From Acorus gramineus (taxonomy: Eukaryota; Streptophyta; Magnoliopsida; Acorales; Acoraceae), in NCBI GenBank assembly GCA_030737835.1, contig CM060855.1, positions 10,995,927 through 11,059,926 of the forward strand: a DNA stretch of 64,000 nucleotides, in the 5' to 3' direction. The notes beneath the pieces are model-generated. The model was not told where the DNA came from. It made no database searches and saw nothing but the letters and a program-made list of their open reading frames with translations. The position numbers were made by a program, and so were the translations under genes. This document shows, piece by piece, positions 26,736 to 61,310 of this stretch (positions are counted from its first letter, which is position 1; each line of letters starts with the position of its first letter).

Positions 26736-26795
26736 CTCTTGTGTTTTTTTTTTTTTTAACTCTGTTTAAACGACAATGACAGTTGATTGAGATGC

Positions 26796-29836: not shown

Positions 29837-30084
29837 TGGAGTGCAAGGTGTTTAATGAGTTTTTTTTTTTAATGTAAAAAAATTGTGGTCTATTGTGACA
29901 CTCAAGAAACAGCTTTAATTTGCTTTTAGTTTAATGTTAGATTTTCACCATTATAATTGTTCATTACTATTGTGGTATTGTTCATATGCTTTTGAATGTG
30001 ATTGTCCCTTTTTTGTCTTAATTAAATTGTCCAATAATATATTTGTACAACTATTTTATTTAACTTTTCAAGCATTCTTTTAGG

Positions 30085-31052
30085 ATGGATAGTGAACAAA
30101 TCACACAGATAGGTAGAGATGCTAACAATAAACATGTATGGACGTCTCAAGAAGATTTGATACTAGTGGAGAATATGGTTGAATTGTGTGTTGCTGGAAA
30201 AATAAAAGCAGACAATGGGTTTAAGCCAGGTACTTTTGGAGAGATTGAGAAAATGATGCATGATAAATTACCTGGATGCGGAATTAAAGCACATCCACAC
30301 ATCGAATCCAGATTGAAATATTTGAAGAATAAATACAATGCAATAAATGAGATGCTAGAACATGGTAGCGGGTTTGCATGGGATGAAGCCAAGAAAATGG
30401 TGATATGCGAAAAAACAATTTATGACGGATGGGTAAAGGTAAATAGTTGTGATTTTTTTTATTTTATCTTAATAAAATTTGTGATTTATTCTTTTTTTTT
30501 TTTTTGTAGAGTCACAAAATTGCCCAAGGATTGTGGATGAAACCTTTTCCACATTATGATGACCTTGCACTTGTGTTTGGAAAAGACCGAGCTAATGGGA
30601 GAGGATGTTTCACACCTACAGAACTCGCAGAAGATGTAGAACAAAATACTAATCCACACATTCAGGATGAAGGCTTGGAGAACATTGTTAATGAGGATAT
30701 TTCAGTGACCCAACCACGGCGGACAACACCGACTGGGGAAGAGGGAACACAGAGTCGTAGGAAGAGAAGGAAGAGCTCTGATTCTTTCACGACAGAATTT
30801 TCTAACTTGGTAGAGGCTTTTAAACTTTCAGCCAATGCAATTGCAGATAGTCTTAACAAGCTTGATGAAGCCACAATTAGAATGGATAAAGTTTTTTCTG
30901 ACGTGTTCAACATATTGGGTAGGGATGATGGGCCTCGTTGTTTGCGAGTAACTGAAATTATAATGCGTGATCCTGTGAAAGTTAATTTGCTCTCAAACAT
31001 GCCTGAAGAACTGAAGAAGGATTGGCTTTCATCTTTACTTCTGTCAGATTAA
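30085..31052 (+). CDS. Harbinger ORF2, Myb/SANT-like DNA-binding protein
   Basis: Two exons, 30085-30438 and 30510-31052 (TAA), give 298 residues. Residues of about 18-115 form a Myb/SANT-like domain (VWTSQEDLILVENMVELC, a trihelix pattern, then GSGFAWDEAKKMV). The middle has a basic patch RRKRRK that could act as a nuclear signal. The C-terminus is helical. In rice Ping/mPing and animal Harbingers such a partner recruits the transposase to the ends and the nucleus; that role is inferred here from the family and from the position 250 bp downstream of the transposase. Confidence 0.88.
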
Positions 31053-39100: not shown

Positions 39101-39890
39101 TTGAACAATAAATTGTACAAAGGTTAGATAGTAGTCATGGTCTGTTGATGGCCATGTTGTCTATACACATTTGGCATGATGAGATTTGATTCATTGACCT
39201 AATTTTCAAAGAGAAAGGAACTAATTGACTAATCAAATGTCGGTTTGTGACATACAAGGAACCCTAACCAATGCAGATGATGTTCAATGGATCATCCAAT
39301 AATCACATTTGATGTATAATTTTAATTTAATCAATTTTGGAGTGTTATGCTAAGTTTTATCAAGATGTTTTGATAGACATTTTTACTATCTCAATGTGAA
39401 ACTTGATAAACCGAAGAAAAATGTGATTATTTAATAAGTTATATTTTAATTTTTATTAAATTGATAATCTAAATTTATTTTATTAATCACAATCACACAA
39501 AACATATCATCATATAATATTATTTTGAAGATTTTGAATCGAACATTGTCAGATATTTTAAATGCAATCTCATAGATAATCCACATATATTTTAAATTTT
39601 TATAAATAGTAAACATTATCTTATGATGTAAATGCTTTGATGAAAAAAATGTACATCAATGCATTTTTAAATGAATTGACCTTTTTTTAAACAAAAATAG
39701 ATAGACAAACACACCTTGAATTTTATTATTAAAATCAAGTGAATACCCAATTTATAAATAGACTTATTTTAAACAAGTGAAAAAAATATTAACAAGCTAT
39801 ACCATAAGAATAAGAAAATATATACGTGGTTGAACGGTTAAATAGACATAGACCTTTTTTTTTATATAATAACATCACTTATTCACTTTT
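36179..39890. other. AT-rich intergenic region, no gene seen
   Basis: 3.7 kb with no frame showing protein-like character. Short T- and A-runs are frequent. A less AT-rich patch at about 36990-37110 repeats gatggccccag twice, and another lies at 37370-37500; both could be element remnants, but neither can be assigned. Confidence 0.5.
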
Positions 39891-39897
39891 TAGTTGC

Positions 39898-40062
39898 ACC
39901 ACGAACACCATGACCCTTCTTAATTACATCTCCAACGGTCCTAAACAAGTCTCCAATTAATTGTACCACGAACACCATGACGTCAACCCTTCTTGATTAC
40001 ATCGTTGGTCCAACGGTAAAAAACGAGCCTCCTCCGCGTCGGCCATTGAGGGCCTATAAATA
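39898..40062 (+). promoter_or_regulatory. Candidate promoter with duplicated MSA-like motifs, TGACGTCA and TATA box
   Basis: A 66-bp direct duplication (accacgaacaccatgac at 39898 and 39964) carries TCCAACGGT twice (39931 and 40009), close to the mitosis-specific activator (MSA) core bound by three-repeat MYBs. A palindromic bZIP site TGACGTCA lies at 39978-39985 and TATAAATA at 40055-40062. Further down, the leader has a telobox-like agggttagggtt at about 40119-40131. This combination is typical of a plant pol II promoter directing + strand transcription; the link to cell-cycle control is inference. Confidence 0.6.
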
Positions 40063-40172
40063 CAGCACAAACGTCTCTCCAAGTACATTTTGATTTTCAC
40101 AGACTTATCTTTTTCAATAAGGGTTAGGGTTCCTGAGGCTTCTCGATTTCGTTTTTGGAGATCGAACGAACG

Positions 40173-40229
40173 ATGGACGCCTGCTCTTCCTCGCCATGTC
40201 GCGCAGCCCTTCTTGCACGGTTTGCATAG
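40173..40229 (+). CDS. Very short ORF or first coding exon behind the promoter, uncertain
   Basis: The first ATG downstream of the TATA box opens an 18-codon frame (MDACSSSPCRAALLARFA, then TAG). It may be a leader ORF, the start of a spliced micropeptide or untranslated. If a donor at 40219/40220 were used with the acceptor before 59878, the frame would continue ten codons (RQPGFDIILF) to a stop. I recognise no homologue. The locus may equally be a long non-coding RNA. Confidence 0.25.
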   Translation: MDACSSSPCRAALLARFA

Positions 40230-40419
40230 ATAAGCATTGTCGAGCTTTCTCTGATTTTTGTTTTTTTGATTGTTTGGGTTTGAGTTCGGGTAGGTAGAAC
40301 GAGTAGTATGGGATTTGAATTGGTTGTGGTTGCTCAAATACATTGCATTTGATTTTGGGTTTTTTTTTTTTTTTTTGGATGTGATCTATGATTTAGGGTT
40401 TTACTTGATACTCTCCAAC

Positions 40420-41320
40420 CAACATTGATTTGGCCTTTCATAATTTCTAGGCTCCCTAAGGAATCAAGGACTTAATATTCGACTTGTTGGAGGGGAGCCA
40501 ACCTCCTATAGACTCGTGAGGGAGTCAAATCTCTTGTTTTAGGGTTGAATTCTTCTATAATTTATTCAGAAAATATGGAGTCTGTAAATAGACTTTGTTT
40601 TACAAAACTGTCATCCTTATCCCGGTGGATCTCTATCAAGATGTCTATCATTCCTCTCACCTTCAAAACAAACTTTATCCTCAAGGTTTTCATGGGAGAA
40701 TCAAGAATGAGACCGTCAACTGATCTATCCCTATTGTATCTTTGTATATCCCTTCAATTGATATTATCTTCCAATTTCACATCACAAGTCTAAGGCTCTG
40801 TAGCAACTGAATTGTAAAGCACCACGTCTGAACTTTTCAAGTCCAATGGATACATATCTGTGGTGAAACAATAGCCCTAGATCTCCATTGGGGAACACAT
40901 TTGTGTTTGTGAAAAAAAATATGTTGATTTTTTCTTAGGGCTTTAAGGAAACCCCCTTGAAATCTTAGCTATTTGGGATTTCTATTGTCTTTTTGATAAT
41001 TCATATTTCCCCCAAAAAGTCAATTGTTTTTAGAAAAGAAAATGCATCATATGAATAATGCTTTACATACATTTTACTCAATCACCCATCCTCCACCACA
41101 AAATCTATATTTTTGACCACCAAAATTTATTTTCCCCAATCCTGAAGGAGATGCATACCCATGTGATACTCATGCTCACCACATCAAAATGTTACTTCAT
41201 TACATGTAAGAAATTCCCTAATACGTTGCATGGGAAAACCAACTTTCCCAATACACCGCATGGGCTATCATCACGATGAACTTACCTTTCTTATTTCTAT
41301 CTCCATTGAGGTGAGGATCT
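40420..41320. other. Insertion-like block of different composition near the array's left end
   Basis: DNA matching the array monomer stops after gggttttacttgat (about 40395-40410) and resumes at about 41330 (cagtggtcttgattacact). The 0.9 kb between is C-richer on the + strand and opposite in skew to the array. Read on the minus strand it has a short open stretch (about 40793-40560). It may be a decayed mobile element; the family is not recognised. Confidence 0.4.
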
Positions 41321-43280
41321 GAATGAAGTTTTCTGTCTTCAGTGGTCTTGATTACACTCTTCTGGGAATGATATTGGATCTGGTTGTGGTAGGTTGAGGG
41401 GTTTGTGAATTTGCACGATTTCATTTTGATTCCACAAAGATTTGGTGCTGCAGTTGATTCTAGGGTTCTTTTGGTGGTCTGATTACACCTATTGTGATTG
41501 ATTTGGATTGATTGTTGTATTGGACTATGGTTTAATTTTGTTCATTGGGGAGTTTTCGTGGCTGATTGTTGCTTTTGGAGAGAACAGATTGTGGACGACT
41601 GGTTGATTAGATTGGGATTGTATTGTTTTTAGGCATTTGTCTGGTGGGTTTCATTATTTGATCTTTGAACATTGGTTTGTGGACGACTGGAATTTGATTA
41701 GATTGGGATTGTATTGTTTAGGCATTTGTCTAGTGGGTTTCATTATTTGATATTTGAACATTGGTCTGGGTGAATTCTTCATCAGGTTGTTGGATTGGGT
41801 TTGATGAATGTATTTGATTTTAAATCATAATTAGTTTATTTAGTTTGATCAATAGATGTTTTATATCAAATTCAAAGGTCTACATGGGTGAGTCAAAATC
41901 ATTGTGGGATTGAATTTGTTGATCGTGCTTAGTGTTTTCAATCATTCCAACCGTGTCCTTGATTTTTTTTTTTAAGTTGTCCATTGAGGGGATTTTATGT
42001 CTCGTTGTTTATTTTTGAGGTATAATAGTATATAATTGAGGTTGATTGAGGTTTGATCAGATTGACTTAGTATTGTTTGGGACTTGGTCGTAGGATTCAT
42101 AATTTGATCTTTGAGCTCTAGGTCTGCCTGAGATGTTGGATTGGGTTTGATGTATGGTTTAGGCATTTGTCTGACGGGTTTCATTATTTGATCTTTGAAT
42201 GTTGGTCTGGGTGAATTCTTCATTAGGTTGTTGGATTGGGTTTGATGAATGTATTTGGTTTATATATTAAATCATAATTAGTTAATTTAGTTTGATCAAT
42301 AAATGTTTTATATCAGATTCAAAGGTCTACATGGGTGAGTCAAAATCATCGTGGGATTGAATTTGCTGATCATGCTTTGGTGTTTTCAATCATTCCAACC
42401 GTGTCCTTGATTTTTTTTTGGAAGTTGTCCATTGAGGGGATTTTATGTCTCATTGTTTATTTTGGAGGTATGATAATATAATTGAGGTTGATTGAGGTTT
42501 TATCAGATTGGCATAGTATTGTTTGGGACTTGGTCGTAGGATTTATGATTTGATCTTTGAGCTCTAAGTCTTCCTAAATGTTGGATTGGGTTTGGTGAAT
42601 ATCAGATTTATGATAAGTTGTAATTAGAGGATTGAGTTTGATCAATAGATGGTCTAAATCAGATTTAAAAGTCTATTTGGGTGAGTCAAATCATGAGGGA
42701 TTGAATTTGTTGATTGTGTTTATTGTGTTCAATCATCCCGACTATGTAATTCTGTCCCTCATGTTTTATGTTGTTTATTGAGGGGCTTTTGATGTATGAT
42801 TGTTTGTTTTGGAGAGATCTAATTGATGTTGATTAGAGTTTAACAAATTGGCATAGGGCTTGTTTGAGTGGGATTCGTGATTTGATCTTTGAGCTTTGGT
42901 TGTTAATGAGGTGTTGGATTGGGTTTGGTGAATATTAGGTTTATGTTAAATCGTATTTAATGGATTCAGTTTGATTAATAGATGATTTATATCAGATCCA
43001 AAAGTCTATCAGGGCGGGCCAAAATCTATGTGGTGGTTCGAATGCAATGCATTTGATTTGATTTGGTTGGGGAATTTTTTTTTTTTGTGGATCTTATGGA
43101 TCTCAATCATATTTTGCACTGATTTGGGGTTTTTACTTGATTGGAGTTTGATGAGATTGGCATAGTATTGTTTGAGGGCTTGCTTGTGGGTTTCATGATC
43201 TGATCTTTGAGATCCGGTTCTTCATTAGATGTTGGATTGGGTTTCGTGAATATCATCAAGTTTATGAAAAAAATTTAATC

Positions 43281-43585
43281 AGAGGATATAGTTTGATCAA
43301 TAGATGTTTTATATGAGATTCAAAGATTACATGGGTGAGTCAAAATCGTTGTGGGATTGAATTTACTGATCATGTTTAGTGTTTTCAATCATTCCGACCG
43401 ATTAATGTTTTTTTAATGATGTCAGAGGATATAGTTTGATCAATAGATGTTTTATATGAGATTCAAAGATTACATGGGTGAGTCAAAATCGTTGTGGGAT
43501 TGAATTTGCTAATCATGTTTAGTGTTTTCAATCATTCCGATCGTTTAATGTTTTTTTAATGATGTTGTCTATTGAGGGGATTATT
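43281..43585 (+). repeat. 153-bp direct duplication within the array
   Basis: The block starting agaggatatagtttgatc occurs at 43281 and 43434, with nearly identical sequence through to atgtttttttaatgatgt, giving two short sub-monomers in tandem. Confidence 0.8.
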
Positions 43586-44714
43586 ACTCTGATTGTGTGT
43601 TTTTTAGAGGTATCAAATTGAGGTTAATTGAAGTTTGATCAGATTGGCATAGTATTCTTCGGGGACTTGGTTGTGGGTTTCGTGATTTGATCTTTGAGTT
43701 AGTTCTTCCTAAGATGTTGGATTGGGTTTGGTTAATGTCAGGTTTATGATAAGTTGAAGTTAGCGGATTCAATTTGATAAATAGATGGTTTAAATCAGAT
43801 TTAAATGTCTATCTGGGTGAGTCAAAATCAGGGAGGGATTGAATTTGTTGATCATGTTTATTTAAATTATCGTTGTGACTGTGTAATTTTGTCCCTGATG
43901 TTTGATGTTGTTCATTGAGGGGGTTTTATTGATTGGAATTTGGCAGATTGGCAAAGCATTGTTTGGGGACTTTTTCATGGAGATTTGTGATTTGATTTGT
44001 TAGCTTTGGCAGTTCATGAGGTATGGGAATGGATTTGATGAATATCAGGTTCATGTTAAATCATATTAAGTGGATTTAGCTTTATAAATAGATGGTTTAT
44101 ATCAGATTCAAAAGCATGTCTGGGTGAGTCAAAACCGATGTGATGGCTATAATTCAGTACATTTGCTTTGATTTGGTTGGGGAAGTCTGGTGTTTTATTT
44201 TTATTTTTTTTTGTGGATCTGATCGATTTCAATCAGATTTCACACTGGTTCAGGGTTTTACTTGATTCTAGGGTTCTTCAATGGTCTTGATTACGCACTT
44301 ATGTGAATGATATTGGATCTGGTTGTGTTAAGTATGGGATTTGTGAATTTGCTTAATGGCAAAGAATTGTTAAGAGACTTGTTTGAGGGGGGTTTGTGAT
44401 TTGATCTTCAACTATGGTTGTTCATGAGGTATTACATTTGGGTTTCTTGAATATCAGGTTTATGTTAAATCGTATTTAATGGATTCAGTTTGATCAATAG
44501 ATTGTTTTTATCAGATTTAAAAGTCTATCAAGGTGATTCAAAATCAATGCGGTGGCTCGGATAGGGTGCATTTGATTTGATTTGATTGGGATTTTTTTTG
44601 GTGGGTATAATCGATCTCAATCAGATATCGCACTGATTTGGGGTTTTACTTGATTCTATGGTTCTTCAATTGTCTTCATTATGCTTTTCTGTGAATGATA
44701 TTGGAATTGGTTTT

Positions 44715-44938
44715 GGTGAGTGAGTGGTTTGTTTTAGTCACTGAGGAGTAGGCTGAAGCTTGGTTTTTTTTTATGTCCTAGTAGATATCTCCTCTATGAT
44801 TATATTTTAGTTTTGTCTAATGTAGGGCTATCGATGTGGTTTTTGTGTATGCTTTGGGCTTTTGCATTGCTACTAATCTAAGATAGAAGCCTACCACTTC
44901 ACTAAAAAAAAGAAAAAACAAACAAATAAAAATAAAAA
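44715..44938 (+). mobile_element. Retroposed poly(A)-tailed insert carried in the array (copy 1)
   Basis: Between the monomer blocks ggttttggtgag and ttaggggcttgcgaatttgc sits about 220 bp that no other monomer has. It ends in an A-rich tail (aaaataaaaa) and has a higher C content. This looks like a retroposed SINE, truncated LINE or transcript fragment. The left limit is approximate and target repeats were not resolved. Confidence 0.6.
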
Positions 44939-45922
44939 TTAGGGGCTTGCGAATTTGCTTGATTTCATTTTGATTCCGTTGAGATTTGGTGTTGTAGTTG
45001 ATTTTATGGTTCTTTAGGGGTTTTGATTATACCTGTTGGGATTTATTTGGATCTGATTTTGATGTTTCTCATCAATAAGGGTGTTTTTTTAAATTTTATT
45101 GTATGCTTGTTGTTTCTGTAGAAATCTGATTAAGGCTGAGAGGATTTTGATTAGTTTGGGATTGATTGTTTAGGCAATTGTTTGAGGGGATTCAATATTT
45201 GGTCTTTGAATGTTCTAAGAATTCTTCATCGTGTATTGGATTGGGTTTGATGAATGTTTATGGTTTATATTAAATCACAATCAATGAATTTAGTTTGATC
45301 AATAGATGGTCTATATCTGATTTGAGGTCTATACGGGTGAGTGAAAGATGGCATGCCATTGAATTTTCCGATCATCATAGTATTTTCAATCATTCCAACC
45401 GTGTAATTCTATCCTTGATTTTTGTTTGATATTGCCCATTGAGGAGATTTTATGTCTAATTATTTGTCATAGAGGAACCTTTATTGAGGTTGATCGGAGT
45501 TTGATCGGATTGGCATAGTATATTTTGGGGGCTTGTTTGTGGGTGAGTTGATCATTGAGCTCCGGTTCTTCATTAGATGTTGGATTGGGTTTCTTGAATA
45601 TTAGCTTTATGATAAATTTGAAATCGAAGAATATAATTTGATCAATAGATGTTTTATATCAGATTCAAAGGTCCAGTGCGCCAGTTCTTTAACTGTTGGA
45701 TTGGGTTTCATGAATAATATTAGGTTTATGATAAATTTGAAAACCAAGGATATAGTTTGATCAATAGATGTTTTATATTTGATTCAATGGTCTACATGGG
45801 TGAGTCAAAATCGTTGTGGGATTGAATTTGCTGATCATGTTTAGTGTTTCGAATCATTCCAACCATGTAATTCTGTCCTTTACTTTTATTGATGTTGTCC
45901 ATTGAGGGGATTTTCTGTTTCA

Positions 45923-46084
45923 TTGTGTGTTTTGGAGGTATCTAATTGAGGTTAATTAGAGTTTGATCAGATTGGCATAGTATTGTTTGAGGACTTGGTT
46001 GTGTTGTGTGTTTTGGAGGTATCTAATTGAGGTTAATTAGAGTTTGATCAGACTGGCGTAGTATTGTTTGAGGACTTGGTTGTG
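45923..46084 (+). repeat. 81-bp direct duplication within higher-order copies 1 and 2
   Basis: ttgtgtgttttggaggta occurs at 45923 and 46004, each followed by gtttgatcagactggc-like sequence and gaggacttggttg. The same doubling is present in copy 2 (about 50701-50862), so it predates the copy 1/copy 2 duplication. Confidence 0.8.
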
Positions 46085-49029
46085 AGTTTCGTGATTTGAT
46101 CATTGAGTTCTAGTGCTTCCTTAGATGTTGGATTGGGTTGGGTGAATATCACGTTTATGATAAGTTGTTATTTGAGGATTCCTTAGATGTTGGATTGGGT
46201 GAGTCAAAATCGGGAAGGGATTGAATTTTTTTTTATCATGTTTAGTGTTTACATTGATTATGACTATGTAATTTTTGTCCCCGATGTTTGATGTTGCTCA
46301 TTGAGGGGCTTTTTATGTGTGATTGTTTGTTTTGGAGAGTTTTAATTGAGGTTGATTGGATTTGACAGATTGGGATATAGTATTGTTTGGGGACTTTTCT
46401 AATGGAAAATTGTGATTTGATCTTTAGATGAGGTGTTTGATTGGGTTTGATGAATATGAGGTTCATGTTAAATCGTATTCAGTGGATTTAGTTTTATCAT
46501 TGGATGGTTTGTATCGGATTCGAAAGCCTATTTGGGTAAATCAAAATCGATGCGGTGGCTTTAGTTCGGTGCATTTGATTCGAAAGCATTTTTGGCAGAT
46601 CTGATCAACTTCAATTATATTTTGCACTGATTCAGGGTTTTACTTGATTCTGGGGTTCTTAAGTAGTTTTGATTATGCTCTTATGTGAATGATATTGGAT
46701 TTGGTTGTGGTGAGTTAGGGATTTTTGAATGAGCTTGATTTCATTTTGCATCAATAGAGATTTGCTGTTGCAGTTGGTTCTAGGTTTGATTATAACTTTT
46801 GTGATTAATTTGGATTTGATTATGTTGTTTTATCGGACTATGATTTTATTTTGTTCAATTGAGGGGTTTTTAAATTTTAGTCTGCTTGTTGCTTTGGGGA
46901 GATCTGATTAAGGCTGACTGGAATTTGATTAGATTGGGATTGTATTGTTTAGGCACTTGTTTTAGGGCTATCGTTATTTTATCTTTGAACGGTGGTGTGG
47001 ATATTTGCACATGAGGTATTGGATTGGGTTTGAAGAGTGTATTTGGTTTATATTAAATCATAATCAGTAATTTAGTTTGATTAATAGATGGATTATATAT
47101 GATTCAAGGCCTGTATCAGTAATTTAGTTTGATTAATAGATGGATTATATTTGATTCAAGGTCTGTATGGGTGAGTTAAATCCATTGTGGGACTGAATTT
47201 GTTAATAATTTGAGTATTCTCAATCATTTCAACTGTGTAATTTTGTCCTTCATTTTTGTTTGATGTTGTCCATTGAGGGGATTTTATATCTGATTGTTTA
47301 TCATGGAGGAATCTAATAGAGGCTGATTGGAGTTTGATCATATTGCCATAATATTGTTTGGGGGCTTGTTTGTGAGTTTTGTGATTTGATCTTTAAGCTC
47401 CAGTTCTTCGTTAGATGTTGCATTAGGTTTCATGATAAAATTGAAATGAGAGGATGTAGTTTAATCAATAGATGTTGTATATCAGATTCAAAGGTCTACT
47501 TGGGTGAGTCAAAATCTTGCTGATCATGTTTAGTGTTTCCAATCATTCCCACTGTGTAATTCTATCCTTTGATATTGTCCATTGAGTGGATTTTATGTCT
47601 CATTGTGTGTTTTGGAGGTATGAAATTGAGGTTAACTAGAGTTTGATCAGATCAGCATAGTACTTACTGTTTGGGGATTTAGTTGTGGGTTTTGTGATTT
47701 GATCTTTGAGTTCTAGTTCTTCCTTAGATTTTGGATTGGTTTGGTTAATATCAGGTTTATGATAAGTTGTAATTAGAATATTCATGATCAATAGATGGCT
47801 TAAATCAGATTTAAAGGTCTATCTGGGTGAGGCAAAATCGGGGAGTGTTCATTGAGAGGATTATTACTCTTATTGTTGTTTTAGAGTCATCTAATTGAGG
47901 TTAATTGGAGTTTGATCAGATTGGCATAGTATTCTTTGGTGACCTGGTTGTGGGTTTCGTGATTTGATCTTTGAGTTCTAGTTCTTTCTTAGATGTTGGA
48001 TTGTGTTTGGTTAATATGAGGTTTATGATAAATTGTGATTAGAGAATTCAATTTGATCAATAGATGGTTTAAATCAGATTTAAAGGTCTATCTGGGTGAG
48101 TCAAAATCGGGGAGGGATTGAATTTGTTGATCATGCTTAGTTAAACACTCGTCATGACTGTAATTTTGTCCCTGATGTTTGGTGTTGTTCATTGAGGGGC
48201 TTTTTGTGTCTAATTGTTTGTTTAGGTGAGTTTATGTAGTTGAGGACGATTGGAATTTGGCAGATTAGCATAGTATTGTTTGGGGACTCTTTCATGGAGA
48301 TTTGTGATTTGATTTGTAAGCTTTGGTTGTTCATGAGGTATTGGAATGGATTTGATGAATATCAGGTTCATGTTAAATCATATTAAGTGGATTCAGCTTT
48401 ATCAATAGATGATTTATATTAGATTCAAAAGCTTGTCTGGGTGAGTCAAAATTGATGAGGTTGCTATATAACTCAGTGCATTTGGTTTGATTTGGTTGGG
48501 GAAGTTTGGTGTTTTTTTTTTTGGTGGATCCGATCGATTTGAATAAGATTTCGCACTGATTCAGGGTTTTATTTGATTCTAGGGTTCTTCAATTTTCTTC
48601 ATTATGCACTGATGTGAATGATATTGGATCTGGTTGTGGTAAGTGATGGATTTGTGAATTTGCTTAATGGCAAAGAATTGTTAAGAGACTTGTTTGAGGG
48701 GGATTTGTGATTGGTTGTTCATGAAGTATTTCATTTGGGTTTGGTGAATATCAGGTTTATGTTAAATTGTATTTATTGGATTTAGTTTGATCAATAGATA
48801 GTTTTTATCCAAGGTATTGGAATGGATTTGATGAATTTAAGGTGCATGTTAAATCGTATTCAGTGGATTCAGCTTTATCAATAGATCATTTATATCATAT
48901 CCGAAAGCCTATCTGGGTGAGTCAAAATCAATGTGGTGGCTATAATTCAGTGCATTTGCTTTGATTGGGTTGGGGAAGTTTGATTTTTTTTAATGGATCA
49001 GATCGATTCAATCAGATTTTGCACTAATT

Positions 49030-52000
49030 CAGGGTTTTACTTGATTCTGGGGTTCTTCAATGGTCTTGATTACGCACTTATGTGAATGATATTGGATCTG
49101 GTTGTGTTAAGTATGGGATTTGTGAATTTGCTTAATGGCAAAGAATTGTTAAGAGACTTGTTTGAGGGGGGCTCGTGATTTGATCCGCAACTATGGTTGT
49201 TCATGAGGTATTACATTTGGGTTTCTCGAATATTAGGTTTATGTTAAATCGTATTCATTGGATTCAGTTTGATCAATAGATTGTTTTTATCAGATTTAAA
49301 AGTTTATCATGGTGATTCAAAATCAATGCGGTGGCTCGGATAGGGTGCATTTGATTTGATTTGGTAGGGATTTTTTTGGGTGGGTATAATCGATGTCAAT
49401 TAGATATCGCAATGATTTGGGATTTTACTTGATTCTATGGTTCTTCAATGGTCTTCATTGTGCTTTTCTGTGAATGATATTGGAATTGGTTTTGGTGAGT
49501 GAGTGGTTTGTTTTAGTCACTGAGGAGTAGGCTGAAGCTTGGTTTTTTTTTATGTCCTAGTAGATATCTCCTCTATGATTATATTTTAGTTTTGTCTAAT
49601 GTAGGGCTATCGATGTGGTTTTTGTGTATGCTTTGGGCTTTTGCATTGCTACTAATCTAAGATAGAAGCCTACCACTTCACTCAAAAAAAAAGAAAAAAC
49701 AAACAAATAAAAATAAAAATTAGGGGCTTGCGAATTTGCTTGATTTCGATTTGATTCCGTAGAGATTTGGTGTTGCAGTTGATTTTAGGGTTCTTTAGGG
49801 GTTTTGATTATACCTGTTGGGATTGATTTGGATCTGATTTTGTTGTTTCTCAAGAAGGGTGGTTTTTTAAATTTTATTGTATGCTTGTTGTTTCTGTAGA
49901 AATCTAATTAAGGCTGAGAGGATTTTGATTAGTTTGGGATTGATTGTTTAGGCAATTGTTTGAGGGGATTCAATATTTGATCTTTGAATGTTCTAAGAAT
50001 TCTTCATCATGTATTGGATTGGGTTTGATGAATGTTTATGGTTTATATTAAATCACAATGAATGAATTTAGTTTGATCAATAGATGGTCTATATCTGATT
50101 TGAGGTCTATATGGGTGAGTCAAAAATGGCATGCCATTGAATTTTCCGATCATCATAGTATTTTCAATCATTCCAACCGTGTAATTCTATCCTTGATTTT
50201 CGTTTGATATTGCCCATTGAGGAGATTTTATGTCTAATTATTTGTCATAGAGGAACCTTTATTGAGGTTGATTGGAGTTTGATCGGATTGGCATAGTATA
50301 TTTTGGGGGCTTGTTTGTGGGTGAGTTGATCATTGAGCTCCAGTTCTTCATTAGATGTTGGATTGGGTTTCGTGAATATTAGCTTTATGATAAATTTGAA
50401 ATCGGAGAATATAATTTGATCAATAGATGTTTTATATCAGATTCAAAGGTCTAATGCGCCAGTTCTTTAGCTGTTGGATTGGGTTTCAAGAATAATATTA
50501 GGTTTATGATAAATTTGAAAACAAAGGATATAGTTTGATCAATAGATGTTTTATATCTGATTCAATGGTCTACATGGGTGAGTCAAAATCGTTGTGGGAT
50601 TGAATTTGCTGATGATGTTTAGTGTTTCGAATCATTCCAACCATGTAATTCTGTGCTGTACTTTTATTGATGTTGTCCATTGAGGGGATTTTATGTCTCA
50701 TTGTGTGTTTTGGAGGTATCTAATGGAGGTTAATTAGAGTTTGATCAGATTGGCATAGTATTGTTTGAGGACTTGGTTGCGTTGTGTGTTTTGGAGGTAT
50801 CTAATTGAGGTTAATTAGAGTTTGATCAGACTGGCGTAGTATTGTTTGAGGACTTGGTTGTGAGTTTCGTGATTTGATCATTGAGTTCTAGTGCTTCCTT
50901 AGATGTTGGATTGGGTTGGGTGAATATCACGTTTATGATAAGTTGTTATTTGAGGATTCCTTAGATGTTGGATTGGGTGAGTCAAAATCGGGAAGGGATT
51001 GAATTTTTTTTTATCATGTTTAGTGTTTACATTGATTATGACTATGTAATTTTTGTCCCCGATGTTTGATGTTGCTCATTGAGGGGCTTTTTATGTGTGA
51101 TTGTTTGTTTTGGAGAGTTTTAATTGAGGTTGATTGGATTTGACAGATTGGGATATAGTATTGTTTGGGGACTTTTCTAATGGAAAATTGTGATTTGATC
51201 TTTAGATGAGGTGTTTGATTGGGTTTGATGAATATGAGGTTCATGTTAAATCGTATTCAGTGGATTTAGTTTTATCATTGGATGGTTTGTATCGGATTCG
51301 AAAGCCTATTTGGGTAAATCAAAATCGATGCGGTGGCTTTAGTTCGGTGCATTTGATTCGAAAGCATTTTTGGCAGATCTGATCAACTTCAATTATATTT
51401 TGCACTGATTCAGGGTTTTACTTGATTCTGGGGTTCTTAAGTAGTTTTGATTATGCTCTTATGTGAATGATATTGGATTTGGTTGTGGTGAGTTAGGGAT
51501 TTTTGAATGAGCTTGATTTCATTTTGCATCAATAGAGATTTGCTGTTGCAGTTGGTTCTAGGTTTGATTATAACTTTTGTGATTAATTTGGATTTGATTA
51601 TGTTGTTTTATCGGACTATGATTTTATTTTGTTCAATTGAGGGGTTTTTAAATTTTAGTCTGCTTGTTGCTTTGGGGAGATCTGATTAAGGCTGACTGGA
51701 ATTTGATTAGATTGGGATTGTATTGTTTAGGCACTTGTTTTAGGGCTATCGTTATTTTATCTTTGAACGGTGGTGTGGATATTTGCACATGAGGTATTGG
51801 ATTGGGTTTGAAGAGTGTATTTGGTTTATATTAAATCATAATCAGTAATTTAGTTTGATTAATAGATGGATTATATATGATTCAAGGCCTGTATCAGTAA
51901 TTTAGTTTGATTAATAGATGGATTATATTTGATTCAAGGTCTGTATGGGTGAGTTAAATCCGTTGTGGGACTGAATTTGTTAATAATTTGAGTATTCTCA

Positions 52001-53827
52001 ATCATTTCAACTGTGTAATTTTGTCCTTCATTTTTGTTTGATGTTGTCCATTGAGGGGATTTTATATCTGATTGTTTATCATGGAGGAATCTAATAGAGG
52101 CTGATTGGAGTTTGATCATATTGCCATAATATTGTTTGGGGGCTTGTTTGTGAGTTTTGTGATTTGATCTTTAAGCTCCAGTTCTTCATTAGATGTTGCA
52201 CTAGGTTTCGTGAATGTCAAGTTTATGATAAAATTGAAATGAGAGGATGTAGTTTAATCAATAGATGTTGTATATCAGATTCAAAGGTCTACTTGGGTGA
52301 GTCAAAATCTTGCTGATCATGTTTAGTGTTTCCAATCATTCCCACTGTGTATATCTGTCTTTTGATGTTGTCCATTGAGTGGATTTTATGTCTCATTGTG
52401 TGTTTTGGAGGTATGAAATTGAGGTTAACTAGAGTTTGATCAGATCAGCATAGTACTTACTGTTTGGGGATTTAGTTGTGGGTTTTGTGATTTGATCTTT
52501 GAGTTCTAGTTCTTCCTTAGATTTTGGATTGGTTTGGTTAATATCAAGTTTATGATAAGTTGTAATTAGAGGATTCATGATCAATAGATGGCTTAAATCA
52601 GATTTAAAGGTCTATCTGGGTGAGGCAAAATCGGGGAGTGTTCATTGAGAGGATTATTACTCTTATTGTTGTTTTAGAGGTATCTAATTGAGGTTAATTG
52701 GAGTTTGATCAGATTGACATAGTATTCTTTGGTGACTTGGTTGTGGGTTTCGTGATTTGATCTTTGAGTTCTAGTTCTTTCTTAGATGTTGGATTGTGTT
52801 TGGTTAATATGAGGTTTATGATAAATTGTGATTAGAGAATTCAATTTGATCAATAGATGGTTTAAATCAGATTTAAAGGTCTATCTGGGTGAGTCAAAAT
52901 CGGGGAGGGATTGAATTTGTTGATCATGTTTAGTTAAACACTCGTTATGACTGTGTAATTTTGTCCCTGATGTTTGGTGTTGTTCATTGAGGGGCTTTTT
53001 GTGTCTAATTGTTTGTTTAGGTGAGTTTATGTAGTTGAGGACGATTGGAATTTGGCAGATTGGCATAGTATTGTTTGGGGACATTTTCATGGGGATTTCT
53101 GATTTGATTTGTTAGCTTTGGTTGTCCATGAGGCATTGTAACGCATTTGATGAATATCAGGTTCACGTTAAATCGTAATCAGTGGATTCAGCTTTATCAA
53201 TAGATGATTTATATCAGATTCAAAAGCCTGTCTGGGTGAGTCAAAATCGATGTGGTGGCTATAATTCAGTGCATTTGCTTTGATTTGGTTGGGGAAGTTT
53301 GGTGTGTTTTTTTTTTTGGTGGATCTGATCGATTTGAATCAGATTTCGCACTGATTCAGGGTTTTATTTGATTCTAGGGTTCTTCAATTGTCTTCATTAT
53401 GCACTGATGTGAATGATATTGGATCTGGTTGTGGTAAGTGATGGATTTGTGAATTTGCTTAATGGCAAAGAATTGTTAAGAGACTTGTTTGAGGGGGATT
53501 TGTGATTGGTTGTTCATGAAGTATTTCATTTGGGTTTGGTGAATATCAGGTTTTATGTTAAATTGTATTTATTGGATTTAGTTTGATCAATAGATAGTTT
53601 TTATCCGAGGTATTGGAATGGATTTGATGAATATCAGGTGCATGTTAAATCGTATTCAGTGGATTCAACTTTATCAATAGATCATTTATATCATATTCAA
53701 AAGCTTGTCTGGGTGAGTCAAAATCAATGTGGTGGCTATAATTCAGTGCATTTGCTTTGATTGGGTTGGGGAAGTTTGATGTTTTTTTAATGGATGAGAT
53801 CGATTTCAATCAGATTTTGCACTAATT
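49030..53827 (+). repeat. Higher-order repeat, copy 2
   Basis: Nearly identical to copy 1, with only scattered substitutions and small indels seen by eye (for example ccattgtggg against ccgttgtggg near 51960). Repeated short frames at 46242/51020, 46729/51507 and 47156/51934 are all exactly 4778 bp apart. Confidence 0.9.
49494..49720 (+). mobile_element. Same poly(A)-tailed insert, higher-order copy 2
   Basis: Nearly identical to the insert at 44715-44938 and at the same place within the repeat unit, so it was copied with the unit rather than inserted anew. Confidence 0.6.
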
Positions 53828-56800
53828 CAGGGTTTTACTTGATTCTGGGGTTCTTCAATGGTCTTGATTACGCACTTATGTGAATGATATTGGATTTGGT
53901 TGTGTTAAGTATGGGATTTGTGAATTTGCTTAATGGCAAAGAATTGTTAAGAGACTTGTTTGAGGGGGGTTCGTGATTTGATCTTCAACTATGGTTGTTC
54001 ATGAGGTATTACATTTGGGTTTCGTGAATATCAGGTTTATATTAAATCGTATTTAGTGGATTCAGTTTGATCAATAGATTGTTTTTATCAGATTTAAAAG
54101 CCTATCTAGGTGATTCAAAATCAATGCAGTGGCTCGGATATGTTGCATTTGATTTGATTTGGTAGGGATTTTTTTTGGTGGGTATAATCGATCTCAATCA
54201 GAAATCGCACTGATTTGGGGTTTTACTTGATTCTATGGTTCTTCAATGGTCTTCATTATGCTTTCTGTGAATGATATTGGAATTGGTTTTGGTGAGTGAG
54301 TGGTTTGTTTTAGTCACTGAGTAGGCTGAAGCTTGGTTTTTTTATGTCTTAGTAGATATCTCTTCTATGATTTTATTTTAGTTTGGTCTAATATAGGGCT
54401 CTCGATTTGTTTTTTATGTATGCTTTGGGCTTTTGCCTTGCTACTAATCTAAGATAGAAGCCTACCACTTCACTAAAAAAAAAGAAAAAATAAACAAATA
54501 AAAATAAAAATTAGGGGATTGCGAATTTGCTTGATTTCATTTTGATTCCGTAGAGATTTGGTGTTGCAGTTGATTTTAGGGTTCTTTAGGGGTTTTGATT
54601 ATACCTGTTGGGATTGATTTGGATCTGATTTTGTTGTTTCTCAATAAGGGTAGTTCTTTAAATTTTATTGTATGCTTTTGTTTTTGTAGAAATCTGATTA
54701 AGGCCGACGGGATTTTGATTATTTTGGGATTGATTGTTTAGGCAATTGTTTGAGGGGATTCAATATTTGATCTTTGAATGTTCTAAGAATTCTTCATCAT
54801 GTATTGGATTGGGTTTGATGAATGTTTATGGTTTATATTAAATCACAATCAATGAATTTAGTTTGATCAATAGATGGTCTATATCTGATTTGAGGTCTAT
54901 ACGGGTGAGTGAAAAATGGCATGCCATTGAATTTTCCGATCATTATAGTATTTTCAATCATTCCAACCGTGTAATTCTATCCTTGATTTTTGTTTGATAT
55001 TGTCCATTGAGGGGATTTTATGTCTAATCATTTGTCATAGAGGAACTTTTATTGAGGTTGATTGGAGATTGATCTGATTGGCATAGTATATTTTGGGGGC
55101 TTGTTTGTGGGTGAGTTGGTCATTGAGCTCCAGTTCTTCATTAGATGTTGGATTGGGTTTCGTGAATATTAGGTTTATGATAAATTTGAAATCGAAGGAT
55201 ATAGTTTGATATAGTCCATTGAGGGGATTTTATGTCTTATTATTTATCATGGAGGAACCTTATTGAGGTTGATTGGAGTTTGGTCAGATTGGCATAGTAA
55301 ATTTTGGGGCCTTGTTTGTGGGTGAGTTGATCTTTGAGCTGCAGTTCTTCATTAGCTGTTGGATTGTGTTTCGTGAAAATTTGTTTTATGATAAATTTGA
55401 AAACAAAGGATATAATATGATCAATAGATGTTTTATATGTGATTCAACGGTCTACATAGGTGAATCAAAATCGTTGTGGGATTGAATTCGCTGATCATGT
55501 TTAGTGTTTCCAATCATTCAGACCGTGTAATTCTATCCTTTACTTTTATTGATGTTGTCCATTGAGGGGATTTTATGTCTCATTGTGTGTTTTGGAGGTA
55601 TCTAATTGAGGTTAATTAGAGTTTGATCAGATCGGCATAGTATTGTTTGGGGACTTGGTTGTGAGTTTCGTGATTTGATCTTTGAGTTCTAATGTTTCCT
55701 TAGATGTTGGATTGGGTTAGGTGAATATCACGTTTATGATAAATTGTAATTTGTGGTTTCAGTTTGAGGATTCCTTATATGTTGGTTTGGGTGAGTCAAA
55801 ATCGGGGAGGGATTGAATTTTTTTATCATGTTTAGTGTTTATATTGATTATGACTGTGTAAGTTTGTCCCTGATGTTTGATGTTTCTCTTTGAGGGGCGT
55901 TTTATGTGTGATTGTTTATTTTGGAGAGATGTAATTGAGGTTGATCGGATTTGACAGATTGGCATGTAGTATTGTTTGGGGACTTTTCTAATGGGAAATT
56001 GTGATTTGATCTTTAGATGAGGTGTTTGATTGGGTTTGACGAGGTTCATGTCAAATCGTATTCAGTGGATTTAGTTTGATCAATAGATGGTTTGTATCGT
56101 ATACAAAAGCCTATTTGGGTGAATCAAAATCGATGTGGTGGCTCTAATTCAGTGCATTTGATTTGATTTGGTTGGGGGAGGTTTTTGTTTTTTTTTTTTT
56201 GTGGATCTGATCGACTTCAATTAGATTTCCCACTGATTCAGGGTTTTACTTGATTCTGGGGTTCTTAAGTAGTCTTGATGATGCTCTTATGTGAATGGTA
56301 TTGGATCTGGTTGTTGTAAGTTAGAGATTTTTGAAGGTGCTTGATTTCATATTGCGTCAAAGAGACTTGCTGTTGCAGTTGGTTCTAGGTTTGATTTTAC
56401 CTATTGTGATTAATTTGGTTTTGATTATGTTGTTTTATCAGACTTTTATTTTATTTTGTTCAATTGAGGGGTTTTTAAATTTTTTTCTGCTTGTTGCTTT
56501 GGCGAGATCTGATTAAAGCCAACTGGACTTTGATTAAATTGGGGTTGTATTGTTAGGCATTTGTTTTAGGGCTGTCATTATTTGATCTTTGAACGGTGGT
56601 CTGAGTATTTTCACATGAGGTATTTGATTGGGTTTGACGAGTGTATCTGGTTTATATTAAATCATAATCAGTTATTTCGTTTGACTAATAGATGGATTAT
56701 ATCCGATTGAAGGTCTCTATATGGGTGAGTTAAATCCGGTGTAGGACTGAATTTGTTGATCATTTTAGTATTCTCAATCATTTCAACCGTGTAAATTTGT

Positions 56801-58380
56801 CCATTTTTGTTTGATGTTGTCCATTGAAGGTTTTTTTATATCTGATTGTTTATCATAGAGGGATCTAATTGTGGCTGATTGGAGTTTGATCAGATTGCCA
56901 TATTATTGTTTGGGGGCTTGTTTGTGGGTTTCGTGATTTGATCTTTATTAAATCATAACCAATTATTTAGTTTGACTAATAGATGGATTATATCCGATTG
57001 AAGGTCTATATGGGTCATCTAAATCCGGTGTAGGACTGAATTTGTTGATCATTTTAGTATTCTCAATCATTTCAACCGTGTAAATTTGTCCATTTTTGTT
57101 TGATGTTGTCCATTGAAGGTTTTTTATATCTGATTGTTTATCATAGAGGAATCTAATTGAGGCTGATTCGAGTTTGATCAGATTGCCATATTATTGTTTC
57201 GGGGCTTGTTTGTGGGTTTCGTGATTCGATCTTTGCTCCAGTTCTTCATTAGATGTTGTATTAGGTTTCGTGAATATCAAGTTTATGATAAAATTGAAAT
57301 GAGAGGATATAGTTCAATCAATAGATGTTTTATATCAGATTCAAAGGTCTACATGGGTGAGTCAAAATCGTTGTGGGATTGAATTTGCAGATCTTGTTTA
57401 GTGTTTCCAATCATTCCAACCGTGTAATTCTGTCTTTTATTTTTATTGATGTTGTCCATTGAGTGGATTTTATGTCCTCATTGTGTGTTTTGGAAATATC
57501 TAATTGAGGTTAACGAGAGTTTGATCAGATCGGCATAGTACTGTTTGGGGATTTAGTCATGGGTCTCGTGATTTGGTCTTTGAGTTCTAGTTCTTTCTTA
57601 GATGTTGGATTGGGTTTGATCAATATCAGGTTTATGATAAGTTGTAATTAGAGGATTCATGATCAATAGATGGTTTAAATCAGATTTAAAGGTCTATCTG
57701 GGTGAGTCAAAATCGTGGAGTGTCCATTGAGGGGATTATTACTCTTATTGTTGTTTTAGAGGTATCTAATTGAGGATAATTGGAGTTTGATCAGATTGGC
57801 ATGGTATTCTTTGTGGACTTGGTTGTGTGTTTCGTGATTTGATCTTTGAGTTATAGTTCTTCTTTAGATGTTGGATTGGGTTTGGTTAATATCTGGTTTA
57901 TGATAAATTGTAATTAGAGGATTCAATTTGATCAATAGATGGTTTAAATCGGTTTTAAAGTTCTATCTAGGTGAGTCAAAATCGGGGAGGGATTGAATTT
58001 GTTGTTCATGTTTAGTTAAACAATCGTTATGACTATAATTCTGTCCCTTATGTTTGATGTTGTTCATTGAGGGCTTTTTATGTCTAATTGTTTGTTTTGG
58101 TGAGATGTAGTTGAGGTCGATTGGAATTTGGCAGATTGGCATAGTATTGTTTGGGGACTCTTTCATGGAGATTTGTGATTTGATTTGTAAGCTTTGGTTG
58201 TTCATGAGGTATTGGAATGGATTTGATGAATATCAGGTTCATGTTAAATCATATTCAGTGGATTCCTCTTTATCAATAGATGATTTATATGAGATTCAAA
58301 AGCTTGTCTGGGTGAGTCAAAATTGATGAGGTTGCTATATAATTCAGTGCATTTGGTTTGATTTGGTTGGGGAAGTTTGG
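53828..58380 (+). repeat. Higher-order repeat, copy 3 (more diverged, rearranged)
   Basis: It starts with the same anchor 4798 bp after copy 2 and keeps the same order of blocks, but has more differences. It also has an extra internal duplication of 291 bp (attaaatcataa at 56656 and 56947). Its match to copies 1-2 stops at about 58380, where ggggaagtttgg jumps directly into another monomer block (tcagattggcatag), a visible recombination junction. Less ordered monomers continue to about 59860. Confidence 0.82.
54290..54510 (+). mobile_element. Same poly(A)-tailed insert, higher-order copy 3
   Basis: Same position in the unit, with more differences (shorter T run, several substitutions), in line with copy 3 being the oldest or most diverged of the three. 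Confidence 0.6.
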
Positions 58381-59845
58381 TCAGATTGGCATAGTACTGT
58401 TTGGGGACTTGATCGTGGGTTTCGTGATTTGATCTTTGAGTTCTAGTTCTTCCGTAGATGTTGGATTTTGTTTGTTGAATATCACGTTTATGATAAGTGG
58501 TAATTTGAGGATTCAGTTTGAGGATTCCTTAGATGTTGGATTGGGTGGGTGTGTCAAAATCGGGAAGGGATTGAATTTTTTTTTATCATGTTTAGTGTTT
58601 TCATTCATTATGAATTTAATTTTGTCCCTGATGTTTGGTGTTGTTCATTGAGGGGCTTTTTATGTCTCATTGTTTGTTTTGGAGAGATGTAATTGAGGTT
58701 GATCGGAGTTTGATGGATATAGTATTGTTTGGGGACTTTTTCACGAGGAATTGTGATTTGATCTTTAATCCTTGGTTGTTCATGAGGTATTGGATTGGGT
58801 TTGATGAATATGAAGTTCATGTTAAATCATATTCAATGGATTCAGTTTGATCAATAGATGGTTCGATCGGATTCTAAAGCCAATTTGGGTGAGTCAAAAT
58901 CGATGTGGTGGCTCTAATTCAGTGCATTTTATTTGATTTGGTTGGGAATTTTTTTTTTTTTTGCTAATCGATTTCAATCACACTGATTCAGGGTTTTATT
59001 TGATTGGGTTTGATGAGTGTATTTGCTTTATATTAAATCATAATTAGTAATTTAGTTTGATCATTCAAGGTCCATATGGGTGAGTTAAATCGGTGTGGGA
59101 CTGAATTCGTTGATCATTTTAGTATTCTCAATCATTTCGACCGTGTAATTTTGTCGTTGTTTTTTGTTTGATATTGTCCATTGAAGGGATTTTATATCTA
59201 ATTATTTATCATGGAGGAATCTAATTGATGTTGATTGGAGTTTGATTAGATTGGCATAGTATTGTTTGGGGGCTTGTTTGTGGGTTTTATGATTTGATCT
59301 TTGAGCTCCAATTCTTTAGTAGATGTTGCATTGGGTTTCATGAATATGGGATTTATGATAAATTGTAATATGAGGTTATAGTTTGATCAATAGGTGATTC
59401 AATGATTTAAAGGTCTATCTGGGGGAGTCAAAATTGGTGCGTGATTGAATTTGTTGATCTTGTTTAATATTTACAATCATTCTGAAAGTGTAATTATGTT
59501 CCTGATTTTTATTGATGTTCATTGAGGGGCTTTTTATGTTTGATTGTTTGTTTTGGAGTGATGTAATTGAGGTTGACTGGAGTTTCACAGATTGCATAGT
59601 ATTTTTAGGGTACTTGTTTGAGGGGGATTCGTGATTTGATCTTTGAGCTTTGGTTGTTCATGAAGTTATGGAATTGGGTGTGGGGAATATCAGGTTAATG
59701 TGCAATCGTTTTTAGTGGATTCAGTTTGATCAATAGATCATTTAGATCTGATTTAAAAGTCTATCTGGGTGTTTCAAAATCGATGTGGGATTGAATTTGT
59801 CAATCATGTTTGGTGTTTTCAATTATTCCAACTGTAATTTTGTCC

Positions 59846-59942
59846 CTTATTATTATTATTTTTTTGTTTATGTGCAGACAACCAGGATTTGATATTATAT
59901 TGTTCTAGTTCCATATCTCTGAGTACTGGATGATATTTTTAG
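59846..59942 (+). other. Possible splice acceptor and exon at the array's right end
   Basis: The array ends in a T-rich tract (tattattattatttttttg) followed by ttatgtgcag, with AG at 59876-59877, an excellent 3' splice site. The non-repeat sequence acaaccaggatttgat follows from 59878. A donor-like AG|GTATCT lies at 59942/59943. This could be the second exon of the transcript starting near 40090; no protein homology is seen. Confidence 0.3.
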
Positions 59943-60130
59943 GTATCTTATGTTCACTTTAATTAATTTTAAGGTATCTTATGCCTTCTTGGTTGTCTTT
60001 TTTTTTTTTTGGTGGTGTCATCCTTTCTCTTACAAATTGCAAGGTATAAGTATCTTGTGTGCTGACGTTTGTACAATTTTTTTCTATGTGGATTGAATTT
60101 TTTTTCTTTTATGCCTTGAATTACACCTCT

Positions 60131-60476
60131 TTTGGATGTGCTTGGAGCATCCATTTTCATCTGTCATATCTATCTGTCCTCATCGTTTCTTTTGTTGCAC
60201 TCATCACATTCCATTGTCCAAGATCTGAAGTCTTTATCCTCTATTTTTCTTGGGAATTGTTTTTGCAGTGGTTCCAAGGTTGCCCTTGCTTCTCCCCCAC
60301 CCAAACTTTTGGATGTGCTTGGAGCATCCATTTTCATCTGTTATATCCATCAGTCCTCTTTTCTTTTGTTGCACCCATCACATTCCGTTGTCCAAGATCT
60401 AAAGTCTTTATCCTCTCTTTCCCTTGGGGATTGTTTCTGCAGTGGTTCCAAGGTTGCTCTTGCTTCTCCCCCACCC
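60131..60476 (+). repeat. 177-bp tandem duplication with frame kept open
   Basis: tttggatgtgcttggagc begins at 60131 and again at 60308; the two copies differ at scattered positions. Because 177 is a multiple of three, the same frames stay open through both copies (60059-60487 and 60132-60491). The second frame repeats LDVLGASIFIC and CSGSKVALASPPP. No family is recognised and the code may be fortuitous. Inside each copy, tgcagtggttccaagg also resembles an acceptor plus exon start. Confidence 0.75.
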
Positions 60477-60529
60477 AATCAAAATAAATAACTGATCTTT
60501 CTATTTTTTTTTCGGTAAGGGTGCCATAT

Positions 60530-61040
60530 AGGCATATTATATATGCATAAAAAAATTACACGTTAAGGAACATGTATCCCACCTTCAGCCTGTACAAAAT
60601 CTATACAGATGTATATTATCTACAACAGGCTCTAGTTTACGACGAATTGCTGGATCCTGAAGTTCTATACACCACTTTGATTCAACTTTCCTTTGGGCAT
60701 AATGCGGAAGAACTTCAGGGGCATGAACTATAATTCCCTGGGAACTTTACAACACTCCATTTGATGAGTAGGCCTAATATATCTCAGCAACTGCATCCTG
60801 CACTTGAGGGGGGGACCTGGGCCTCTTGTTTTTAGAATTTGTAAAATGGGTACAGAGTCCAAACATATACGAACCTGTGTAATTCCATTTCCACATAGGA
60901 ATCTAATTCCCCGTCGAACGGCCTAGGCTTTCTTTTGAATCGGAGACTGGTCTTTCTACTTATTCCATGATGTAATTTCTTGCTACACAGCATTCCTTGA
61001 GCCCATCTTGTTAAGTGCTGCATTCATTTTCTTTACACTA
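60530..61040 (-). pseudogene. Decayed coding remnant of unknown family (tentative)
   Basis: Minus-strand frames show protein-like stretches such as HAPEVLPHYAQRKVESKWC followed by ELQDPAIRRKLEPVVD (about 60610-60720), and NALNKMGSRNAV-like sequence near 61020, broken by stops. Codon-like composition contrasts with the AT-rich surroundings. I do not recognise the family. It may be a gene fragment captured here together with the RRM exon that follows. Confidence 0.3.
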
Positions 61041-61155
61041 AAAAAATTGATTTAATTGGTTTGGGAGGTAGGCTTTCGTTTGATATATTCCATATTACCA
61101 TATCTTTTTTGTTTGTTCTTTGAATTGTATTGATTACATTTCTATGTTTCATAGG

Positions 61156-61310
61156 TAATTTGGATGAGAAGGTGACTGAAAGAGTCTTGTCTAAGATTCT
61201 TATCCAAGTAGGTCATGTAGTAGACCACCACATACCTCAGTATAAGAAAAGGCTATGCTTTTGCTAAATATATATGAGACTGAGGAGATTGAGACTATGC
61301 TATTAAGTTA
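61156..61310 (+). pseudogene. Decayed exon of an RRM RNA-binding protein gene
   Basis: After a splice-acceptor-like ttcatag (AG at 61154-61155), the frame reads NLDEKVTERVLSKILIQVG and then HVVDHHIPQ. This matches the first RRM of the plant SF3B4-like/RBM family (typically GNLDERVTDRVLYDILIQ...VVDLYIPRDKE...KGYAFAEYETEEI). Downstream the match continues in other frames as GYAFA and YETEEIET, so a piece of the loop is lost and two frame shifts have occurred. Keeping the intron/exon border argues for a DNA-level duplication rather than a processed copy. The other exons were not found. Confidence 0.6.

Follow-up and report, generated by a model that had tools for sequence, protein, structure and literature searches.

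A 64,000-nucleotide stretch of Acorus gramineus DNA, referred to here as the window, carries a long tandem array organised at two levels just downstream of a short leader with a TATA box. Two-level organisation is typical of satellites, and the array raises the question of whether it was dispersed from elsewhere or arose where it lies. Our preferred reading, held with a probability of roughly 0.66, is that it is a local tandem repeat, born from the intron that it fills and enlarged there by local copying. The features concerned, with the evidence for each, are as follows.

40,055–40,062, plus strand: TATA box, TATAAATA (exact match)
40,087–40,289, plus strand: putative exon 1, a leader with a short reading frame (sequence; candidate donors)
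40,309–40,413, plus strand: first, old array unit at the 5′ end of putative intron 1 (local alignment, score 60)
40,414–41,335, no strand: insertion of about 920 bp splitting one array unit (model positions meet across its edges)
41,336–59,862, plus strand: main tandem array with a period of about 345 bp (69 matches to the monomer model or fragments of it)
44,019–48,811, plus strand: higher-order copy 1 (4,793 bp)
48,812–53,606, plus strand: higher-order copy 2 (4,795 bp; 2.6% substitutions relative to copy 1)
53,607 to about 58,381, plus strand: higher-order copy 3 (rearranged; middle about 80% identical)
44,734–44,937, 49,513–49,718 and 54,310–54,509, plus strand: A-tailed, retroposon-like insert of about 204 bp, one per higher-order copy (3/3)
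46,003–47,183, plus strand: identical tract of 1,181 bp (base-for-base identity with 50,781–51,961 in copy 2)
59,867–59,877, plus strand: 3′ splice acceptor, TTTATGTGCAG (sequence)
59,878–59,942, plus strand: putative exon 2, ending ATGATATTTTTAG and followed by GTATC (sequence)
61,155–61,362, plus strand: decayed RRM exon with frame shifts and stop codons (profile and Protein Data Bank matches)

When the whole window was compared with itself by BLAST (E ≤ 1e-5), 845 of the 852 direct off-diagonal matches fell inside the array and no inverted match was found. The single orientation given in the preliminary description was thereby confirmed, as was the two-level tandem organisation, for which the alignment of the higher-order copies (see below) also speaks. 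An iterated 330-bp monomer model gave 69 matches or fragments spanning 41,532 to 59,853, with 18, 18, and 17 of them lying wholly within higher-order copies 1, 2, and 3, respectively. The monomers had been described as diverged and 310–350 bp long; diverged they are, with a mean difference of 26% (0.264) between out-of-register monomers (508 pairs, 33 monomers), but the full units are about 290–390 bp long and are of two kinds, which have roughly the first 110 bp in common. When the rest of the window (1–40,250, the insertion, and 59,863–64,000) was searched with the two repeat models at E ≤ 1, each model found a single match, with E values of 0.99 and 0.038, which do not rise above chance. 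No Rfam family reached the gathering threshold and no tRNA genes were found. A 30-base pattern of the monomer had no match in viral contigs, a collection that is uninformative for plant sequence, and a 15-base pattern matched at least 118 stretches in bacterial and archaeal contigs, which, with a single match each among the 80 listed, were taken as chance.

In its content the window has the look of plant genomic DNA, with kinase, EMP70/TM9, and aldo-keto reductase exons together with Copia-type pieces, and the following domains were recognised by Pfam.

20,286–21,047, minus strand: Copia rve and SH3-like
21,172–21,768, minus strand: Copia Pol_BBD and gag_pre-integrs
25,010–25,369 and 34,305–34,667, minus strand: aldo-keto reductase, PF00248
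29,360–29,836, within 28,465–31,052: transposase piece, DDE_Tnp_4/Plant_tran

Broken Copia-type retrotransposon pieces occupy 20,286–22,882 (minus strand), assigned beyond the Pfam matches by reading frames only. Between 28,465 and 31,052, the transposase piece is followed by a Myb/SANT-like protein (PF12776), an arrangement which we take to resemble a Harbinger-type element; the frame at 28,465–29,040 had no Pfam hit. Two aldo-keto reductase genes or relics lie at 24,338–26,765 and 34,305–36,208 (minus strand), the match at 35,963–36,208 being just below the Pfam cut-off, and a 45-bp unit is repeated 3.7 times at 34,915–35,079.

Within the array, higher-order copies 1 and 2 aligned with 4,649 matches and 124 mismatches (4,773 aligned bases, proportion differing 0.026) and 10 gaps. 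The large unit, previously put at about 4.78 kb in three copies, stands at 4.79 kb for the two clean copies, but copy 3 is rearranged, with 4.4–5.2% substitutions in its first 1.6 kb and 7.3–7.9% in its last 1.4 kb on either side of the less similar middle. Nearest relatives were compared for 38 monomers, each with 250 or more aligned bases, of which 29 lie within 44,000–58,400. In 24 cases, all from that region (24/29 there), the nearest relative was found at a distance of one or two higher-order periods. In-register pairs (n = 20) had a mean difference of 0.10, compared with 0.264 for the other pairs; four of the 20 showed values of 0.25–0.34, which are probably a product of the ±80 bp register tolerance. 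The array is thus a higher-order repeat, in that same-register monomers of different large units are more alike. In centromeric-type higher-order repeats, diverged monomers are contained within a near-identical larger unit that is homogenised by exchange; the present array shares diverged monomers inside a near-identical larger unit and, on the proposed account, homogenisation by exchange, and differs in having only three copies and in lying beside genes.

The A-tailed insert gives an order to these events. Its versions in copies 2 and 3 are 99% and 92% identical to that in copy 1, and it is absent from three comparable aligned units (at 46.6, 56.2, and 41.3 kb); since all three large copies have it and the comparable units lack it, the insert came first and the large unit was copied later. 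A BLAST search of the remainder of the window gave only short matches to the insert, of which the best covers 25 bp of the A-rich tail, and it is possibly the end of a SINE or LINE. The difference between copies 1 and 2 was patchy, with two 250-bp segments at 11.9% and 8.5%, while the segments flanking the identical tract differed by 3.2% on the left and by 0.4–0.8% on the right. The identity over 1,181 bp suggests that gene conversion or exchange has recently taken place between these copies, which were partly made identical more recently than the large unit was copied. Plant substitution rates are 5–7e-9 per site and year, and on a rough estimate from these rates the large-unit copies would have separated about 2–3 million years ago, whereas the oldest monomers would date back some tens of millions of years.

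At the 5′ end, transcription was assumed to start near 40,087, about 30 bp past the TATA box, and the leader is followed by two candidate donors, CGG/GTAGGT (40,290) and TAG/GTAGAA (40,294), which are only moderate matches. The first array unit begins 15–19 bp past them. Its score of 60 against the best array unit was not reached by any of the 596 window segments that served as controls (maximum 39); in 500 shuffles, the maximum was 35 against the best unit and 45 against any of seven units, and the observed score was reached by 0/500 shuffles for six of the seven units and by 2/500 for the seventh. This homology is short, about 105 bp, and partly poly-T. A model of the longer unit (B), built from 41,320–60,000 only and hence without the first unit, matched 40,318–40,413 (E 1.2e-8, the bias correction being large); with the plain monomer model, no match to the first unit was obtained (E 0.66).

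The array breaks in mid-unit at 41,336 (model position 203), and the missing part of the unit is met at 40,413 (model position about 197–204), which indicates that the first unit was split by an insertion of about 920 bp. Segments inside the insertion scored at most 30.5 against the array, compared with 60 for the first unit, and no convincing terminal inverted repeats were seen among the 25 inverted pairs listed out of 45. In a sliding scan of 39,001–41,445 against the array, only noise-level segments were found besides the first unit and the array edge; three were slightly above 20 shuffles (39,001, 29.5 versus 29.0; 39,301, 33.0 versus 32.0; 40,501, 30.5 versus 27.0), and that at 40,001 equalled its shuffle maximum and was taken as noise. 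The array had earlier been placed from 41,320 onward, some 1.2 kb past the TATA-bearing leader. That start lies close to the right edge of the insertion and has to be moved, as the homology reaches upstream to about 40,309; the TATA box is present as described, but the gap behind it is explained by the insertion, which displaces the rest of the array beyond 1.2 kb from the promoter.

At the 3′ end, the last monomer match ends at 59,853, the array at 59,862, and the acceptor at 59,877, so that the array stops about 15–24 bp before the acceptor. When exon 2 was joined to the exon from 61,155, the product read IFLGNLDEKV, in which IFLGNLDE is presumably an RRM RNP2 motif, and a stop codon directly follows this first piece. 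A second piece, in another frame, contains the RNP1-like KGYAFAKY and also ends in a stop. The three pieces joined, with the breaks as X, scored 24.1 bits with Pfam RRM_1 (cut-off 20.7) and matched SF3B4 (E 3.1e-7) and RBM7 (E 1.8e-4) in the Protein Data Bank; the first piece alone scored 12.3 bits, below the Pfam cut-off, with SF3B4 at E 0.034, and the third piece alone had no Pfam hit. As predicted from this profile match, the relic is the start of an SF3B4/RBM7-like RRM domain, and its frame changes and stops indicate that the RRM gene copy has decayed and is not functional as an open reading frame. The putative second intron contains two tandem copies of about 174 bp (60,129–60,478) that are 91% alike and do not match the array. 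We infer that leader and RRM exons are parts of the same gene; leader and relic could also be unrelated to each other.

Judged by the candidate donors, the acceptor, and the RRM exons downstream, the array stretch is probably an intron, namely intron 1 of the decayed RRM gene, so that the composition formerly called intron-like can be put in more definite terms. The array would then be the near-complete fill of one intron, with about 19 kb of about 19.6 kb. Because the first unit lies directly after the candidate donors of the leader, the seed looks like the intron itself, and the suggestion of a local, self-made repeat gains support in this sharper form. In the proposed account, a segment of intron 1 of the RRM gene copy, 15–19 bp past the donor, would have been duplicated head to tail, and unequal exchange would have led to about 50 monomers, which are now diverged. 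Next, a block some 14 unit lengths long, already containing the 204-bp A-tailed insert, would have been copied as the 4.79-kb higher-order unit, parts of the higher-order copies would be kept identical by gene conversion, and the array would in this way have come to occupy almost the whole intron. The two-level repeat, the first-unit homology, the identical tract, the splice-like sites on both flanks, and the RRM exons in their decayed state are present at this locus, whereas the direction of growth and the mechanism of exchange are proposed.

It is unlikely that the array is instead a patch of a genome-wide satellite, for example a centromeric or subtelomeric one that was dispersed and landed here, or a set of transposon-internal repeats. 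The two-level organisation would suit a satellite, and plant satellites that came from retrotransposon repeats are described in PMC7004042. A satellite that had landed here would, however, have to account for array edges that nearly coincide with the intron edges, a first unit that adjoins the donor, genes and gene relics on both sides, and the finding that the window contains no further convincing copy outside the array. In addition, a Pfam scan of the five array frames of at least 80 amino acids found no transposon family, the two weak hits in array frames (E 0.13 and 0.064) being below the cut-off.

The composition of the array bears on what it might do. GC skew was at least 0.26 in 36 of 36 array segments of 500 bp (mean 0.44); outside the array the mean was 0.05, with 2 of 90 segments above 0.3, one of them at 0.45. 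Strand skew of this strength and uniformity could favour RNA–DNA hybrids. From the transcript-strand skew throughout the array and its start beside a promoter, it might be proposed, at rather long odds, that the intron is a self-expanding element, in which repair of hybrids after transcription duplicates sequence, while the copied splice-like and enhancing words keep the intron transcribable. At CpG sites in the array, C had changed to T in 37% and to other bases in about 1%, and G had changed to A in 27% and to others in 8%, a transition bias as expected under methylation in the CG context and thus a likely sign of past CG methylation. Heavy methylation as a special feature was discarded, the CpG ratio of the array (0.50) being within the range of other parts of the window (0.27–0.95), which leaves the transition bias as the one notable feature. 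As far as function is concerned, the array is probably for the most part neutral ballast in a gene relic.

That the array functions as an oversized enhancing intron, with its TTNGATYTG copies raising transcription from the upstream promoter, is highly doubtful. This motif occurs 37 times on the plus strand and once on the minus strand (expected on the plus strand 7.9, sd 2.5, 30 shuffles) and ranks 35 of 7,560 letter permutations, and its effect has been reported to depend on dose, up to 20 copies at least (Gallegos and Rose 2019, PMC6760150). According to the same report, the effect is gone from 1.8 kb on, whereas none of the 37 copies lies within 1 kb of the assumed start, one lies within 1.8 kb, and 36 lie farther away; the motif enrichment expected of enhancing introns (IME) is therefore seen, but not the position within about 1–1.8 kb of the start. 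For CGATT, the second enhancing motif, the plus strand shows no enrichment (15 versus 14.3 expected), the exact TTNGATYTG is missing from the plain monomer consensus (four in the longer B consensus), and the downstream gene is decayed. Moreover, repetition multiplies any word, so that motif copies in the array are not independent. The array is thus like UBQ10-type enhancing introns, as described in PMC6760150 and PMC8157754, in being a promoter-proximal first intron enriched in TTNGATYTG, and unlike them in that its motif copies lie beyond the published range and its transcript strand has no excess of CGATT.

We also give little credence to a role in keeping transcription of the long intron going, in which GGTGAGTC, found in many units, would bind U1 and suppress premature polyadenylation (telescripting). 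GTGAGT was found 51 times on the plus strand and never on the minus strand (expected on the plus strand 9.1, sd 3.1), the 5′-splice-site-like GGTGAGTC, with 26 copies, comes first among its 840 permutations, and the best-kept blocks of the monomer include TGGGTGAGTCAAAAT; U1 telescripting is reported from Arabidopsis (PMC11489095). However, in a test for selection on blocks within the monomer the best-kept block was not significant (p = 0.0525), GTGAGT alone ranks only 5 of 60, and poly(A)-like words on the plus strand are if anything slightly commoner (AATAAA, 8 versus 4.7 in shuffles), while the multiplication of any word by repetition applies here as well. An assembly artefact is hardly credible: the tract identical in copies 1 and 2 might suggest one, but misassembly does not create monomers that are 26% different out of register or higher-order copies that are 2.6% different with 10 gaps, so that copy number alone could be wrong.

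Regulatory tandem repeats are reportedly present at maize b1; the array resembles them as a local tandem array beside a plant gene, and differs in that its units are diverged and intronic. For the Drosophila Y genes kl-3 and kl-5, gigantic introns with satellite DNA are described, in which, as here, tandem arrays make up most of the intron, and which are transcribed with the gene (PMC6508621). Those introns lie on a heterochromatic Y and run to megabases of simple satellites, unlike the present 19 kb with a 330-bp monomer and higher-order units in a plant. A primate satellite was derived from single-copy intronic sequence (Valeri et al. 2018, cited in PMC7004042), so that intron sequence was the seed of a tandem array there too; as cited, it became a major satellite, whereas the array described here is still in its presumed intron of origin. 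Rice heterochromatic first introns, as described in PMC7145194, are repeat-bearing, promoter-proximal, unusually long, and carry transposons. The present intron is likewise long, repeat-bearing, and promoter-proximal, with apparent signs of past CG methylation, and is unlike them in that its content is tandem repeats rather than transposons. Among the papers listed on intronic tandem repeats, intron expansion, satellite higher-order repeats in introns, tandem repeats and paramutation, R-loops and skew, and U1 telescripting, no comparable plant intron array was found. The likeliest account is that the array grew from the intron that it occupies; it would then be a variant of intronic tandem arrays, and primates offer a precedent for a satellite that arose from an intron.

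The beginnings of satellites can seldom be seen, since the copy that founded them has as a rule disappeared. In the present case a presumed founder, diverged monomers, a higher-order unit marked by a shared insert, and an identical, conversion-like tract occur in one intron, so that the steps can be put in order. If the intron were indeed a self-expanding element, it would be a nursery where an intron turns into a satellite. The array would be a striking example of an intron enlarged through copying in place, and it suggests that local tandem duplication, in addition to transposons, can lengthen plant introns.
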